From Paramecium tetraurelia (lineage: Eukaryota; Ciliophora; Oligohymenophorea; Peniculida; Parameciidae): 64,000 nt of DNA. A program made the translations under genes and the position numbers. Below the pieces are notes generated by a model. The model was not told where the DNA came from, ran no database searches, and worked only from the letters and a program-made list of their open reading frames with translations. Positions 46,453-58,159 of this stretch are shown here, one piece after another. The stretch spans positions 62,001 to 126,000 of the forward strand of contig NW_001798967.1 in the NCBI RefSeq assembly GCF_000165425.1. The letters run 5' to 3'. Within the stretch, counting starts at the first letter, position 1; every line of letters starts with the position of its first letter.

Positions 46453-46925
46453 GATCTAAAAATTATCAAATTTATTTATAAATAAATTATATTAAAAATA
46501 TAATTATAATATCAGGATTTACAATATAACAATTCTTATAGTAATCTGCTCGGTTGATGTCACCTTTCTTAAATGAACTAAATTAATATGCAATAATCTA
46601 TTGAAATCTTATTTCTAAAGTAATTCTTGCTATTCTAATATATAAATTTTCTACTTTTTGTTTTCTGAAAAATCAAATTGTCCCTATTTTGAGAAAATCC
46701 TTACTTTTGTTTTCAAATTGATCATTGCTGATTGTAGTTAATATAATTTTGTTATAAATTTAACAATGACCAATTTTTTAAATTTCAAAATGTGAAAGTC
46801 TAAATAGGTTTTGTATTTTGACACCTATTAAGTGAATTCAGACTTAAAGTATATTTTATAAACTTTATAATTGTGAAAGAACAATATAAATAATATTTAT
46901 TTTTAAATATTAATAATATACACCT
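46453..46925. other. Divergent intergenic region, no gene seen
   Basis: About 470 bp separating two divergent genes. A/T-rich; no coding-like frame, RNA gene or clear repeat. Confidence 0.5.
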
Positions 46926-48914
46926 ATGTCTAACAACAATCATTCTGATGATGAAGAAATGTTTGTAATATTTATGATTCTTACTTTAGCTTGTGGGCAA
47001 GATCCAAGCTTAAAAAGTGGAAATAGAGGCACTTTAAAAATAATTAAGGGTTACAGAATTTCAATTTAAACAACAGATATTAGAAGTATCACTTATATTG
47101 ATAAAAAGCTCACAAATGAACTTGAGAGAGAGAGGAAGAGAACGGGTGAATTGGAGAATGAGATAAACACCTAAATTAGTTCAATAGGACAGGGTGAAAT
47201 TTAATCATTTGCCACTCAACTTGAATAAAAATTGTCAGAAGCTGAAAATAAATTGTTAGAATATAAAGCAAATGAAGTTTATTATGCTAATAAATTTATA
47301 GTTGAAATTGCAAAAAGAAATATAGAGTTTAAAAAGAAAGCCAGAGAATGAGGAAATTGATGAATTAAAATAATAGTTAGTTAAAATGGAAGAAACAGCA
47401 ATTGCATTAATAGTTGAAAAAGAAAAAGTTATTTAAGATCTAAAGAGCCAACTTGAATGTTCAACATAGATCTAAGAGACTTTCCACGATTAAATCCATC
47501 ATTCTGATGTAGATGATGAAAAGGATATTAAAATTTAAAATTTAAAATAATTAGTATAGGAATTAAATTAGAAAATAGAATAAGACTAGTTGCATTTTGA
47601 TGAAAGATTAATGAAATTAGAGCATGAAATTACTGAACGAGTGTTAGACAGCATTAGTCATTAAATTAATGAATCAAAATCAGTTGAATAAGATTTGCTT
47701 CATTAGATTAATCTATATGAGGAGAAAATAAAGAATTAAGATAAGTTATTAGTTAGTTAGGAGAAATTATTATAATAAGTTAAGGATGAAAAATATAAGG
47801 AAGTTAGTTTTTATGAAGGCAGAAATGCTGAGATGCAAAAGAAATTATCATCTGCATTGTAATAAGTACTAAAAAGTGACAGAAAAAGTGAGGATGCATT
47901 TAAATAATACACCAATTTGCAGAGAGAGAAAACAATTCTTTAAAAGCAAAGAGACGAATAAGTTAAATTAAATGTTAAATTGGAGAATAATATAAGAAAA
48001 TAAATTTAGGATATGGATGAACTTAGACAATATAATAATAGCTCTTAATAATAAATTGATGATTTAGAATAATAAGTTAATCATTTAGAATAATAATTGC
48101 AAGAAACCAAGTTTTATTATGAAGAATAATTATAAATGCAGAAGATTCATTTACCTAGTGAACGATTGCCTTCATAATAGGAAGAGTAAGGATAAGGAGG
48201 AAATCTCTTAAGTGAATTACTAACTGAAGAAATTTCAATAGAGAAACCACATAATACTTAATAGAGTGAAGATAGCTTTCATCAATAAATTCCATAAACT
48301 CCCCAGTCTAAAAATGGAGGAGGTCATTTGTTTGCATCCTCTAGAATCTCAAATGCAAGTGTAAATACTAAAAGAAGATATTAGGAGATGGAATAATTGA
48401 AGATAGAATTGCATTCTGTTAAACATGAAAATGAGTAAAATATACTTATTATTTATATAGATAATTGGCAGAAGAAATAGAAAATTATGAACATTTGGTT
48501 GGTGTCTTATAATAAGAGATTAAAGCATAATTATTAGAAATATAAAATTTAAGAAAAGGAAAACTTGATTACTCATAAGAAAGAGATTTGAGAATAGACT
48601 AGGAATAGTTAAAATAATCATTACATAAGCTTGAAACTCATTTTATTACTGCCAAGTTAAGTTGGGCTGAAGAGGTAAATTTCTTAAAATCAGAAGTAAA
48701 AAGAGCTGAGAAATAAGCATAAGAAAGCACACTATTATATAATTAAATATTGACTGAAAAGGAGTATTTCCAATCTAAGTTGAAGAAACTTGAAACTTAA
48801 ATTGCAAAGAAAGAAAAAAAGAATTAAAATTCATAAAACACTCCTTTAAGTCCAATTAAAGAGGATGATTAGACAATTAAAAAAAAAGGATTCTTATCTT
48901 ATTTCGGAAAGTGA
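46926..48914 (+). CDS. Coiled-coil protein, 629 aa
   Basis: Starts MSNNNHSDDEEMF, then almost continuous heptads (VEIEALQKQLRVTEFQFKQQ; ELERERKRTGELENEINTQI). A short Ser/Pro-rich hinge lies near residue 430 (ASSRISNASVNTKRR), and a second coiled coil ends in KKKGFLSYFGK. Introns: 46965-46989, 47086-47108, 47277-47301 and 48435-48460, leaving 1890 nt. The tail GFLSYFGK is an amphipathic motif that could touch membranes. The next gene starts 69 bp downstream on the same strand. Possible golgin-like or cytoskeletal role; not proven. Confidence 0.78.
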
Positions 48915-48983
48915 AATGTAAAATTTTGTTGATAATGTATTCATATAAACTAATAAATTTTGAATAAATTTCATTTTATAAAA

Positions 48984-50072
48984 ATGGATTAAAATGTTTA
49001 AGAGTAAGAAGAAGAGCTTGATGAAAAACAACTGTAAGAAAAAATGAGGTATGAGAAAATATAAAAAGAAATCTAAGAATCATAGGATAGATCAACTGAA
49101 ACTCTTTAAAAAATGAAACTTACATTCTAAACAATTGATGATGTCTAAGAGTAGGCAAGATCAACAGTTGATAATATTGACAACTTTTAAAAAACATTTA
49201 GTGTCACAATGGATAAACTACTTGAAAACATTGGCAAATCCTTAATTTCGAATAGTATAAAGTCAAGTGAGCATAATCCAAAAACTGCTATAGAATTAAC
49301 TATAAATGAAGCTAAATAATTAATCACCAAAAACACTGTTATTTTATGTGGTGCAGGTCTTAGTAAAGCAAGTGGTATTCCTACATCAAAAGAATAAAAT
49401 GGAGAATGGATAAAAGGAGAATGCAATTACCCATTATCTAAATTAAAAACTAGAGATTTCTTAGTAGATAATCCGAAAGTATATTGGGAATGGCATAAAT
49501 AATATAAACAATTAGTATAAGATAAAATACCAAATGCTGGTCATCTTGCTATAAAGAATTTTAAGGAAAAAAACAAAGATGCTTTAATTGTTAATCTAAG
49601 TATTGATAATTTATTGGCGTCTGTGTTTGAATCGGAAGAGATTAAGTATGGCTATAACAAATAGATTTATGAAATTAATGGTAATATCAAATATATGAGA
49701 TGTTTGTATGAATGTACATTCTAAGAAGCCGAGCTAATGACTGTGTATGACATTCCAGACCTAGAATTAAACGAAATTCCAAAATGCCCTATATGTGGAT
49801 CAAAAGGAAGACCTCATTTATTGCTACTTGATGATGAGATTCTGGATGAAAATTGCAGGATAACAGAAATCTAAGAGTTATCTTAAAAGTATGAAACAAT
49901 TATTGTAATTGGCACAACTTTATAAACTCATTTTGCAAAAACCATGGTGTGTGAATTTATAAAGAAAAAAGCCACAATAATTGAAATAAATCCAGAACCA
50001 GTTATAGAAGTTGGAAATACATTTTGGTTGATTGGAAAATCAGAAGAAATTCTGCCAGAGTTGTTAGATTGA
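48984..50072 (+). CDS. Divergent sirtuin with coiled-coil N-terminus, probably inactive, 362 aa
   Basis: Sirtuins are NAD-dependent deacylases. The NAD-binding start VILCGAGLSKASGIPTSK (from about residue 120), the zinc cysteines (MRCLYEC and KCPICGSKGRPH) and the Rossmann segment IIVIGTTLQTHFAKTMVCEF place this in the family. The catalytic positions are altered. The HG motif (usually ELHG) is EINGN, so the general-base His is Asn at about residue 232. TQNID is LSIDN and its following LH is lost. GIPDFR is GIPTSK and VVWFGE is LLLLDDE. Residues 1-110 are a charged coiled coil not found in typical sirtuins. Single exon, 1089 nt. Likely a pseudoenzyme or binding protein. Confidence 0.85.
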
Positions 50073-50319
50073 AGGGGTTTTATTTATATTATAACATCAT
50101 CTAAATTATATTCTAAGTTAATATTTGAAAATTGAATTCAAATCAAACACTATGGTAAAATTGGATGAATTAGAATAATAATCACAATGTTGTTGTATTT
50201 TATTGATTACAACACTCATCGTTGAAAATGGACTCATAGAGTTTACTTGTTTTATATAATATCGAAATTTAACAATACTTAATTATTAATAAATATATAT
50301 ATAATCGTAAGTACAAAGA

Positions 50320-50972
50320 ATGAATCGAGAATTACAGCCACCATACAAATTAGACACGGATTCAACTGAAAGGATTATAAAAGATTTATTGATTTATAAA
50401 GACGCTCAATTGAAGGTCATCCTTAAAAAATATATTGATATCACTGCACCATAAGAAACATTGAGCGAAGAAAAATTGTAAATAAATCGACTAAATAAAA
50501 AGACAATAATTGGTTACTGAATTTTAAAAAGAGATAGCTGTTTATGAATTTTAAATAGCCAAGGCAGCCAGATAATTGGAGGCATAAAATTTTGATAGAG
50601 AATAAAATTAAGAATTAAACAAATCGATAAGTAATTTATCACAGTGACTTTCTTAGTCGAAGGAATTAAATAAACTGATTTGGAAATAGAAAATCTGAAA
50701 AGTGTGTATCAGATTGAAGAATAGATAAAAATTAATAGATAACATTATGAAAATCTATCTAAATAAATAAGTAGTTATGAAAATGTTGACACTGTTATGA
50801 AAAATATAGAAGCAGCAACAATAAATATTGAATAATTAAAAATTCAACACAAATAAGCTGCAGAATTAATTAAAATTAAAGAAAAATAATTATTCATGAT
50901 GGTATTTATAATATAATTACAATCTAGTTGCATTTAATGCAGGATTTAATTGAGGTCAAGTATGAATTATGA
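50320..50972 (+). CDS. Small coiled-coil protein, 191 aa
   Basis: Starts MNRELQPPYKLDTDSTERII and is helical throughout (QLVTEFQKEIAVYEFQIAKA; DTVMKNIEAATINIEQLKIQ). Three introns (50478-50502, 50631-50656 and 50902-50927) leave 576 nt. The size and all-helical character resemble intraflagellar-transport or BBSome-associated small coiled coils, but no specific match was recognised. Confidence 0.7.
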
Positions 50973-51127
50973 TAGTCTTATTAATTTGTGTTGAATATTA
51001 TTAAATTTAAGAATTAAAAACATTTAAATAAGAATTCCGATTAATTAAACCAAATTTGATGGGAATTTTATGTGAAATACAAATTTAATTAAGATTATTC
51101 AATAATTAATAAAATTAAAGAAAAGCA

Positions 51128-51304
51128 ATGGATAAGCTAAGCTCTAAATTGGACAAGTTTTACACCGACTTCTATGAATTTGAAACCCACCCAAGAAACA
51201 ATTCAACCTAAAATCAGATCGATCTCAATACTTCATTGGATCTACACTTTAAAGATCTGGAGTCCTTACAAAGCAAAGATTAAAGCTCCGATTATGAGGA
51301 CTGA
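51128..51304 (+). CDS. Very short protein, 58 aa, unknown
   Basis: Frame MDKLSSKLDKFYTDFYEFET to TGA at 51302-51304, acidic and Ser/Asp-rich, ending SSDYED. Composition matches neighbouring genes rather than background. It could be complete or the first exon of something spliced further. It lies between a plus-strand coiled-coil gene and the 3' end of a minus-strand gene. Low support. Confidence 0.4.
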
Positions 51305-51478
51305 GCACCCGGGGATATTGATTTATGATTCTTATAGATTAAAAGTATGTATTAGAACCAACAAAACATTTCTATTTTTAAGTTACTATTTCTTTTTAAA
51401 TTCTCCAAAATGAGATAGAGTAAGAAGACTTATTTACTTTATTGTTATCATGATAATCATAATTCATACATATAATTT

Positions 51479-54400
51479 TCAGAGGAATTCAAATAACAAT
51501 TCTTCTAAATTTTAAAGTTTGTGCCCAAAATTAATTAAATTCATTTCACAAGAGTTACTTGAAGAAGAACTATTTTTAATTAGATGAGCTTGCTTTATAT
51601 TGACAACACAATTCTTAAGGCCGTGATAAAGCTTAATGGGGATTTCTTAACCGCAGGAATTCCAAACATTTTATGACTTAATTAAACCTTAATTGAATTT
51701 AAAAAATATACCGTTTATTATGTGTAATCTTCCATTCAAAGAGATGGGGTTATATCGTGGATCTTACTTTTCTTCATGAGATTATATGAGGGAATTCCAG
51801 AAGTGGAATCCCAATTCAGGCATATCATTTGGGCAAGTTTAAAATACTTCCTTAGATTTCTTCAACGTATCTGTCAACATATCATCTATTTCGCAAAACG
51901 CATTGATTATTAATAGCCCTCCAATTCTAGGAAGATTGCTCTATACATGTGCCACTAATTTAGTATAATTTATTACTGTAACTTAGTACTTAGAATCCAC
52001 CATATCCATATCCTATGAATTTATAGATGTCGTTATTTTTAATTATATCCTTCTGACATAGTTCAAACAGTAGTGAATCCAACAATAAAGAAATATCTAA
52101 ATTGTCTTGAATTATGTTTGGATCGAACACTGTATAGGACTACCCTACAATGAAAATAATAGTTGTACCTGGTAAATTCATCAATAAAATAGTTGTATTA
52201 GGTTTAATATTCTATTACATAATGTCTAGATATTCAAATGAATTATCAAAGAAATCTCCTAAAAATATCACTATTTGATGCTCTTTCTCAGTTAGATCTA
52301 ATCCACTTTAATTGTCTTTATTAAATTCTTAATCTTCTTCCTAGTGTTATAATATTAAATATGGGATGGCACATTATTCAAAGCAAAAGTAATTGACAGA
52401 CTCCAAAAATATATCCGGAACACTTTCAGGGGGATATTCTAAATCATAGAGTTGGCAAACATCTAATAAACTATATTGAGTTTATGGGACTTCAATCACT
52501 CTTAGCTTACCCTAAAAGAAGGATTATCTATTTGAATTCAACTATCTCTAACTTTTATTGATTCTATTTCTCTAAAATTAATCTGATTAACTATCTGATC
52601 TCTTTAAGTGTTAAGATTCCATTTAGCTTCTTTAAGATTGAAGTCTACCAGATTGTTATTTTGCAGATTAAATCTTATTCGGTTTTGGAGGCTTAGTGTA
52701 ATTAAGAAAGCCCATAGTTAATCTGTTGATGTCAATATTGTTGGTTTTAGAACTTGAAGAATTTCGTTTTGTGTTTTCCAATTGAGGTTATTAGCTAGGC
52801 ATGAATAATTTAAATGTTTTTGGAGCCTATGAGTGAGCAGATTGTATCACTCTGAATTGTTTAGCACTCTATATTTTTCTAACTCTGTTTTCACTTTAGT
52901 CTTTTTCTGCATTGTTTTAAGAAGCTTGAGTTTTTATTTTTTATAATGATTAATTTTAGTCTTATCTAATTCTTGAATCATTTCTCTTTATGTTAGATCT
53001 CTCTAATTATGATAATTATTAATTCGATGCATTCAAACTTGTTTTTTATTAGGCTAAGGAGGATGAATCCCTTTTAATCCATTATTTTTATTGTAAATCA
53101 TTAGATAATCTCTGATCAAAATACTTGCTAGCCAAAGAGTAAACAACAAAACAATTTTTACATATTTTAACAGTTTTATAGAGATTTGGTAGATTATACA
53201 CTTCAGTTTTGTTGAATTTAAATGGATATTCTTCATCAGTATTAATTTTATCAAACTCTTAAAAATGATGCTTTGAGTTTCTCGTGAATATCTTATTTTT
53301 CATTAGCACCTCTATCACTTCTTGTGAACATTCCCTTGTTCTAAGTATCAATTAAAAAGAGATCTCATGTGGCAGAGTCACTGAAAACTTCTCTTCATTC
53401 ATCTTTTTGTTTCCAAAATATTTCTTGTAATCTGTAACAATATTCTTACGTATTTAGAGTGGACCTCTATTCTTCTCTTCCATTATGTAATCACAAAAAT
53501 CACCAACGCATCTTTATACTATGAGATTCTTATATAATTTTTGACTGATTTCTTTATCATCTTCATAGATAGTTTAAGGTATCTTCATTGGTTTTTTATC
53601 TCTTAATCTCGTAAACATTTTTATTAGGATCAAGAAATTTTCAAAAGAACTATTGTCCTTCAATTCGTTCTTCATGCTTTAGATTTCATAAGGAGCATTT
53701 TCCTGAAAATCAACTAACAACTCCTTCAAACCTAGAAAATATATCATCTGTTAATCATTTTGCATAAATTTAGCAACCAATTTCTTAACTCTCACTTTAT
53801 AGGCTTTTTCTAAAAAATCAACTATCTTTTTGACAATCTAAAATTTACAATTATTAATTTACTTTGGATAATGTTTAATTCATTTAATTATCAAAGAATT
53901 TAAACATGCAATCCACATACTCAACTTAATCATTTTTATTACTTTCATCATAACTGTCTGAATGCTATGTTTATTATTATATGTGCAATTATGACAATTT
54001 CTTTTGCAAAGGCTACAATATTACTTATTTCTAGGTTGACTTTTTAAAAAATCTATAACTGACAGGCAAATTAATAACATCTTGTCTGTATTCGACGTAA
54101 AATAATTCATCTAACGTATAAGATTGTTAATACCTGCTTTTGAATAATTCTCTAAATGCTCTTGCAATATTTATAAACCACTAACATTTCCATCTAAAAA
54201 CATTTTCACCAAATCAACTTTTGTAATTGCTTTTTTTGCTTTACTAATTCTTGCAAACGCACTTATTTCATTCTTGCCAGCCTTGATGATGTCTAATAGA
54301 GTTGTTAAGGTATCAATTCGAAAATCTTCATTTTGCTTTACTCTGCATAAGACTCTACATATTTCTACAAAATTCAATTTATTTGAATTCTTTTTTAATA

Positions 54401-54766: not shown

Positions 54767-56880
54767 TCATTATTGCTCCCTTTAGTTTAGATGATTTTAG
54801 TATTCCTCAATAATCCTCTGCATGTGTTTTAATTTTTGCTAAACATATTAACAAAGTAGTAATACCTCTTTATGTCCTAATTCATCTCTTAATTAATCCT
54901 AATTTGATTTCCTATTACTATAATCTTGCATCAATTCAGGACGATTCACAATTCTGTATTCATATTTATAATTACCCTGTTTATTGCTTTAATTTAAGAT
55001 TTTCAGTTCTTAATTTATCCTTGTAGACTTTTTATTCTCCTAAACTCTTACGTAATCCATCTAGAGTATCCTTCTTTTTATCTAAATTTATTGATAAATT
55101 GTGTTACAATTAATCTTTTCTTAATCCTAGAACTTTTATCCAACATGGCCTAATTTCTCTCTAGTATGAGAGAACATTAACACAGATTTCATATTTTTAT
55201 TTTTCTATTTTTAAAGATCTTCATTCCTTTCCTCAATTTTTTCATTTAAAGTTTGATTCTCGATCTTTAATTATTCAAAATCAATTAGATGTAAACCTTC
55301 TGCTAATTCTTCTTTCTTTTTCAATTATTATTATTATTTGGTTAAAATATTTCTCTATCTTAATGCATCAAGTCTTAATTCTTACAAAGTTTTATTTCTG
55401 GCAGATTCTTACACCTCCCATTCAACTATTCTAGCTTCTGGTATTTATTTATTTGTTCTAGAATAGGCAGCTTTGAGTGCAACTTGTCTCCTCAAATCCA
55501 AAAAGGCCTATCTTATTTCATTACATTTTTATGATTTTTCATTTAATTTTGATTGTAATTCTTAGGCCATCTAATTGTATCTGTCCTATGTTTATTAGAG
55601 ATCTAATCTAATTTAATGCACATATGCTAAAGTATTTAAATATTTATGTTCACTCATAGTCATATCCACAATTTTATCAACATAAACTTCTTATTTATTT
55701 CTAATTTATTTAATTTTTTATTATAAATTGACATTATGATCATAAAGTTCATCATGTTATTTTTGTGCTTCAGCAATAGCAATTTCCAATTCATCTTTAA
55801 TATCCTAATTGGATATATCTTTAAACATGTAATTTTTCTGAACTAGCTCATCTTCCTTTTAATTTTCATCTTAGGACAAATTATCTTTATATTAATCATC
55901 TAATTTTTAAATAGGGGGATCTTATAGATTTTATTCGTCTTATTCATCTTATTATTGAGATTGTTATGCCTCAGATTCTACTGGAGCATATCTTGGATCA
56001 GGGTAGTAGATGACTGGAATTCTCAGTTTTAAATCTACATGCTTTAAGTTTAGTTTTTCTCTTGTGCTTTTCATGTAAGGAATTGATTCTGGTGACTTCC
56101 TAGTATACAAATCAATGTATTATCTGATATCATATGTGCATGGTTATCCCTGATTTCCTATTTTAGCAATAAAGCATTTAGTTTATCTATCAAATTCAAT
56201 ATGTTCAGGCCCTATCTTATTGTTTTCATTTTTATCAGATACATTACTAGAGTCACTTGTAAATGGCAATATTTATAAGGCATAAACACCAACTTCATCT
56301 TCAAGCATCTTTCCATAGACTAATATACTTCCATCATTGCTATCTTCAATTTTAGTAACACATAAATCTTTATGACTTACAAGATACACAATAGCAACTT
56401 AGTTATCATCACATGACACACCAACGGAGATGTGATTCATTTCATTAGAAAGTAATATTTTCCTATCTTCTTCATCTTCAAAGAACAATTAACCAATTTC
56501 CATGAAATAATCATAGATAACTTAAGCATCAGGTATTGTATCTTCTTCAAATTTGGAAACAATGTAAATCAATTTAATATCATCCAATATCTTTTCATTA
56601 TACTTATAAAATCCGATTCTATTTAAATGATTAACTAATACAATTTCTTCAATTCAGCTTCTGTGTGATCATTTTCAAGCAAATGAGATGCATACCTTTC
56701 TGCCACAAAATCAGTTATCAATTCGATGTATAATTAATTCAGTTTCTTCTGTCTTCTAATTAGATTCACATTTTCTAATAAATCCCTCTTAACCTATCTT
56801 AAGACTTTCTCCGAATCGTATTCATCAATATCTCCTTCATTTTAATCACTATTACTTTGATTTGGAGCTTATTCACTCAT
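54767..56880 (-). CDS. CFAP184: CCDC96/CFAP184-like axonemal protein with extra N-terminal domain, 680 aa
   Basis: CCDC96 (CFAP184) with CCDC113 forms a coiled-coil complex at the base of radial spoke 3 in motile cilia. The C-terminal half carries that family's DUF4201-type signature, notably EELAEGLHLIDFEQLKIENQ followed by TLNEKIEERNEDLQKQ and KSVLMFSHTREKLGHV. The N-terminal 250 residues (MNHISVGVSCDDNQVAIVYL) resemble a CAP/SCP-like globular domain seen in ciliate proteins; that call is tentative. A Q/D/E-rich linker joins them. Introns: 56619-56641, 55082-55107 and 54954-54975, leaving 2043 nt. The related CCDC113/CFAP263 is the main alternative. Confidence 0.82.
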
Positions 56881-56924
56881 TTCTGTCAATTGGATTATTA
56901 ATATTATCTAAACTATTAATAAAA

Positions 56925-57836
<912 letters not shown>

Positions 57837-58159
57837 AAATTAAGTAATTTATTTAAAAAAATTTTATGTGTTTATACAAAGACATATAGGTAGCTTACCA
57901 ATTTTATATATAATTCTTTAAATAACTCGTTTGCTATTAATTTATGTAAGGATAAGTTTAAAATTCGATCATAAATTTTGATCATATAATAATGTAATTG
58001 TTGATTTTATCATTTTGTAAATTTAATAAATCAAATTCTGGAATAATTAACTAATAATTAGGTATATGTCTATACTGATTAGTAATTATTCATTACCAAT
58101 CTATTTGGCATCAAACTAACTATAAAATTATATATTACAATAAAATTTATATATATATT
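57837..58159. other. Intergenic region, no gene seen
   Basis: About 320 bp between RAB2 and the LRR gene, both plus strand. Contains A/T-rich sequence only. It should carry the RAB2 3' end and the next promoter. Confidence 0.5.

Follow-up and report, generated by a model that had tools for sequence, protein, structure and literature searches.

Pseudoenzymes are well known among kinases and other protein families. Among the papers listed in a literature search, no natural sirtuin pseudoenzyme was recognised by title or by the start of the abstract, which is weak evidence of absence, as most subscription journals lie outside its coverage; nor did any title among the papers listed point to a study of Paramecium sirtuins. 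In the PDB, the product of the gene described here, a probable pseudosirtuin and hereafter called the pseudosirtuin, matches archaeal sirtuins and SIRT5 by sequence, with a best E-value of 1.1e-15. SIRT5 and archaeal Sir2 share 22–24% identity with it in the best matches listed but differ from it in the catalytic residues and in the long N-terminal coil. The class M sirtuin SirTM, like the pseudosirtuin, naturally lacks the catalytic histidine; in the available text of its structure paper (PMC4518038), it has Gln137 at the histidine site, keeps Asn118 and is an active ADP-ribosyltransferase, whereas the pseudosirtuin has N232 and S206 at the corresponding positions.

The pseudosirtuin gene lies at positions 48984..50072 on the forward strand of the window, that is, the whole stretch of 64,000 nucleotides of Paramecium tetraurelia DNA that was analysed. 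It is a single-exon open reading frame of 362 codons followed by a TGA stop, free of ambiguous bases and open throughout when TAA and TAG are read as glutamine according to the ciliate code, in agreement with the original prediction of an intact, single-exon gene of about 360 residues. Under the standard code, no open reading frame of at least 80 amino acids overlaps positions 47500–51500. The G+C content is about 26%, and the genome comprises 69 Mb in 231 contigs. The gene downstream of the pseudosirtuin contains a 25-base intron (read by eye), and later stops in the same reading suggest further introns; for the aurelia species, the available text of PMC8354472 gives tiny introns of 20–30 nt and genomes of 66–73 Mb.

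At least eight SIR2 matches were found in the genome, including two full-length relatives, on C155 and C189, of 367 amino acids each and 89% identical to one another. The pseudosirtuin is 55–56% identical to these two paralogues over its full length, coil included. Judging from their residues, both paralogues should be active. A second sirtuin pair, C178 and C159, has TSNVD instead of TQNID in both members, with the HG motif kept; a zinc-site cysteine of C159 (CEC) is replaced by phenylalanine in C178 (CEF). Another relative (G000:C202:268995-272174) is found beside a kinase gene, as is the C61 copy. Its frame is interrupted, its Pfam match covers only profile positions 7–65, and an alignment of one of its frames with C61 spans 252 columns at 46%, so that it looks like a pseudogene and a recent twin of C61.

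The SIR2 domain of the pseudosirtuin (residues 116–362, 49329..50069, forward strand) is delimited by a profile match, a fold model and PDB matches. The sirtuin fold markers, previously described as readable, are reflected in a nearly full-length match to PF02146 (SIR2, Pfam; E=2e-17, 64.2 bits against a cut-off of 24, profile positions 1–177 of 180). The fold model has a pLDDT of 85.6 and a pTM of 0.70, and the best 50 matches in each of two PDB searches are all sirtuins; the protein is thus predicted to retain the three-dimensional sirtuin fold. Alignment columns place the kept GAG motif at residues 123–125 (49350..49358, forward strand), the kept GT of the second Rossmann half at residues 310–311 (49911..49916, forward strand) and the kept N336, the asparagine of the IN motif on the adenine-ribose side, at 49989..49991 (forward strand). 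N336 is equivalent to Asn258 of SirTM, whose role on the adenine-ribose side is described in the text available from PMC4518038. All four zinc-site cysteines (C240, C244, C268 and C271; 49701..49796, forward strand) are present when aligned to the cysteines of the paralogues. Their columns hold cysteine in 74, 59, 72 and 76 of 79 prokaryotic sirtuins, respectively, the C244 column being less conserved. In comparison with the paralogues, the second Rossmann half is the best-kept segment, with 43 of 62 residues retained versus 45–58% in the other segments of the domain.

Upstream of the domain, the fold model and the paralogue comparison indicate a long N-terminal helix or coiled coil at residues 2–94 (48987..49265, forward strand). 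A coiled-coil leader had been proposed for this gene and is indeed present, but it is not a new fusion, as had also been suggested, because both paralogues share it. When the 110-residue leader of the C155 protein was compared with the genome, the best match besides the three sirtuin genes had an E-value of only 0.29. Pfam matches of the coil to Spectrin_Anc-1, PMC2NT, Sec3_CC and others scored under their cut-offs and were taken as generic coil matches. At the a/d core positions of the coil, 8 of 12 paralogue residues are kept, as compared to 50–52 of 95 over the whole coil, so the core is not clearly better kept.

The catalytic pocket is altered at four motifs, each located by alignment columns on the forward strand. 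In the GIPTFR loop, F135S and R136K (49386..49391) convert the phenylalanine and arginine into SK; in QNID, Q205L and N206S (49596..49601) replace the QN while D208 is kept; in the HG motif, H232N (49677..49679, codon AAT) replaces the catalytic histidine; and F282L and E284D (49827..49835) replace the F-x-E motif, which we take to lie on the acyl-lysine side. The pseudosirtuin accordingly reads GAGLSKASGIPTSKEQNG, NLSID and EINGN, and the C155 and C189 paralogues read GAGLSHASG(I/V)PTFRGKDG, SQNID and EIHGN. The original prediction had placed asparagine for the histidine of HG at about residue 232, and this holds: the column is histidine throughout the 79 prokaryotic sirtuins as well as in the two paralogues. 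Its reading of GIPDFR as GIPTSK is correct as to the losses of phenylalanine (F or Y in 79/79) and arginine (79/79), now S135 and K136, but not as to the threonine, which is common (58/79) and present in both paralogues. Likewise, of the reported replacement of TQNID together with the following LH, the loss of QN stands but the missing LH after NID is common to both paralogues. F282L and E284D are two further losses that had not been reported.

The reference set for these counts consisted of 79 of 80 prokaryotic sirtuins, one having been dropped for stops, chosen by the pattern QN[IV]D; the set was thus itself selected on the QNxD motif in which the pseudosirtuin has L205 and S206. Conservation reaches at least 90% in 32 columns, of which both paralogues keep 27 and the pseudosirtuin 21. 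Out of the 27 columns kept by the paralogues, the pseudosirtuin loses exactly the seven listed above and retains 20. These include GAG, D208, G233, G310, N336 and three zinc cysteines, the fourth lying in the less conserved column. The pocket, either catalytic or acyl-lysine, was taken to comprise nine of the 27 (A124, F135, R136, Q205, N206, D208, H232, F282 and E284); the roles of the arginine, the glutamine and the F-x-E residues in this list are those of general sirtuin chemistry. The roles of the alanine, phenylalanine, asparagine, aspartate and the histidine equivalent were taken from the available text of the SirTM structure paper (PMC4518038). Losses affect seven of the nine pocket columns and none of the 18 other conserved columns (Fisher p=4e-5, a post hoc contrast, as the pocket list, based in part on general sirtuin chemistry, was compiled with the losses already known); when the selected QNxD columns are left out, the same contrast gives p=1.4e-4. 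In an alignment of 14 proteins, seven from this genome and seven plasmid-encoded, only the pseudosirtuin departs at the arginine, asparagine and histidine columns.

Without the phenylalanine, arginine, glutamine, asparagine and histidine, the protein should be able neither to cleave off nicotinamide nor to carry out the deacylation that follows in the sirtuin reaction. On the grounds of this chemistry, the pseudosirtuin is very probably inactive, and L205 and S206 may in addition weaken NAD binding.

The genomic context of the three genes suggests how the pseudosirtuin arose. The 50 kb blocks around C155 and C189 are largely colinear, and these two genes are recent ohnologues. The window is colinear with both blocks, in the same order but with fewer genes, at 34–39 kb, at the sirtuin and at 62–63.6 kb, and with C189 also at 16–22 kb, a region that the compared C155 block ends short of. 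The duplicated blocks are nested. Of the 76 matches in this genome to the family of the 62–63.6 kb anchor, the copies on C189 and C155 are the two most closely related to it. In the phylogenetic tree, the C155 and C189 copies are sisters and the pseudosirtuin falls outside; the trio is grouped with support of 100/99 amid long branches, an open fork and composition warnings, and the tree does not name the sirtuin class. Taken together, synteny and tree order place the split between the pseudosirtuin and its paralogues before the most recent whole-genome duplication, and the split most likely represents the intermediate duplication. In the available texts, P. caudatum is said to have diverged before the two latest duplications (PMC8354472), and the most recent one is dated to about 320 million years ago (PMC10195154). 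Scans with the alignment of the three paralogues gave 77 pattern matches and no confirmed relatives among genome contigs, a set without other ciliate genomes, and 528 pattern matches and no confirmed relatives among viral contigs.

The block that is the recent twin of the window was found on C200, with flanks matching at 89.7% (up to 48971) and 76.2% (from 50250) DNA identity. At the place of the sirtuin gene, only 191 bases separate the matching flanks, and a tblastn comparison of the three sirtuins with 20 kb of this twin gave a best E-value of 0.013, for a coiled segment of the gene downstream. The recent twin of the pseudosirtuin gene has been lost; the sister lineage kept both of its recent copies and the pseudosirtuin lineage one, which indicates that pseudosirtuin dose is dispensable. 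The 89.7% identity belongs to the upstream coiled-coil gene (window 46829–48971 versus L033 4447–6587 in the twin) and perhaps results from gene conversion; most other matching stretches of the twin block have 70–84% identity, and another one (56868–57874) reaches 93.8%.

Selection was assessed by codon likelihood on the three genes, where the path from the pseudosirtuin back to the paralogue node also runs along the paralogue stem. The likelihood prefers a very long silent divergence on this path. A first codon model hit the upper bound of branch length and was replaced by a likelihood profile, which is still rising at the longest branch, so that the divergence is usable as a lower bound only. 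Along this profile, a point 9.3 lnL units from the best fit gives a path omega of 0.094, and one only 3.3 units away gives 0.056. The first model rejected omega=1 on the path for the whole alignment (2dlnL=117), for the domain alone (102) and for the coil alone (20), and found no omega difference between the copies, a single shared omega costing only 4.5 units of 2lnL. The pseudosirtuin differs from C155 at 30 of 59 fourfold sites and from C189 at 31 of 57, approaching the saturation expectation of 0.62–0.63. In the protein tree, the pseudosirtuin branch carries 0.62 changes per site as opposed to 0.20 on the paralogue stem, a roughly threefold excess that fits partly relaxed constraint; constraint on the pseudosirtuin thus seems weaker than in its sisters, but not absent. 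The intact frame and the low path omega are seen together, but the omega path takes in the paralogue stem.

Could the gene be a young pseudogene that has simply not yet acquired a stop or a frameshift? The deletion of its recent twin, its long branch and the existence of a broken sirtuin relative in the same genome are all in keeping with this explanation. However, neutral decay would strike the pocket and the other conserved columns alike, whereas only the former have changed. Neutral simulations limited to substitutions and started from C155 (400 runs for each setting) leave the frame free of TGA in 4.5% of cases at 0.2 substitutions per site, where mean identity is 62%, and in just 1.5% at 0.3 (50%). 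Silent sites are near saturation, yet 55% identity persists over the full length, and with the low path omega this makes young decay unlikely; we regard a young pseudogene as improbable. An assembly or sequencing error at the histidine codon deserves practically no credence: both paralogues have histidine and a single base change would turn CAT into AAT, but seven codons across four motifs are changed, the sequence contains no N and the frame is open.

It is equally improbable that the protein has kept a different NAD chemistry, acting as a protein ADP-ribosyltransferase like the class M sirtuins. SirTM demonstrates that a sirtuin without the histidine can be an active ADP-ribosyltransferase (PMC4518038, available text), and D208, GAG and N336 are kept in the pseudosirtuin. 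Against this, mutation of Asn118, Gln137 or Arg192 in SirTM dramatically lowers activity according to the same text, and the asparagine of QN is serine in the pseudosirtuin, which has also lost the phenylalanine of GIPxFR, a nicotinamide contact in SirTM (PMC4518038).

We therefore favor, at a probability of about three in four, a retained pseudosirtuin that stems from an older duplication of the coiled-coil sirtuin, has lost its catalytic residues and has a non-catalytic role. The retained pseudoenzyme proposed originally is well supported by the loss of seven pocket residues, by the predicted fold, zinc site and ADP side that are kept, and by the low path omega, as well as by the presence of sister genes with intact residues in the same genome. 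The coiled-coil sirtuin would have been duplicated before the most recent whole-genome duplication; one copy would then have lost the residues for nicotinamide cleavage and deacylation, with purifying selection still acting on the fold, the zinc site and the ADP-binding half. Turnover of NAD by this copy is most likely gone. Since GAG, GT, N336, the zinc site and the coil remain, the simplest role would be that of a non-catalytic ligand-binding or partner protein beside the paralogue pair. The sensor of NAD or ADP-ribose, or scaffold, suggested originally is likewise conjectural. The conserved ADP side may still hold NAD, ADP-ribose or a related ligand, a guess to which we give even odds, and pairing through the coil may act in addition or instead. 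The conserved coil could join the pseudosirtuin to both paralogues or to their shared anchor and so change their dose, place or activity; an actual mixed oligomer with the paralogues is a more doubtful guess. The most specific version, a coil-tethered regulatory partner that senses NAD or ADP-ribose for two active sisters and has been kept since before the last Paramecium duplication, is speculative and, as a whole, rather unlikely.

By motif, several PDB mutants appear to alter the residues that are changed here: SIRT5 Q140L (8z56), SIRT5 N141V (8z58) and Sir2Tm H116A with 3'-O-acetyl-ADP-ribose (2h59). No paper on SIRT5 Q140L or N141V was found in the literature search. Those entries are single laboratory mutations, whereas in the pseudosirtuin the changes co-occur in a natural gene, a well-supported pseudoenzyme candidate. 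The C155 and C189 paralogues have the same architecture, coil, zinc cysteines and neighbouring genes but keep the F, R, Q, N, H, F and E that the pseudosirtuin lacks, all seven of them. One genome thus provides a control set of two same-coil ohnologues with intact residues, a gene-less twin locus and, elsewhere, a broken sirtuin, and knock-down of the pseudosirtuin versus the other two copies would directly test a sirtuin fold without the chemistry.
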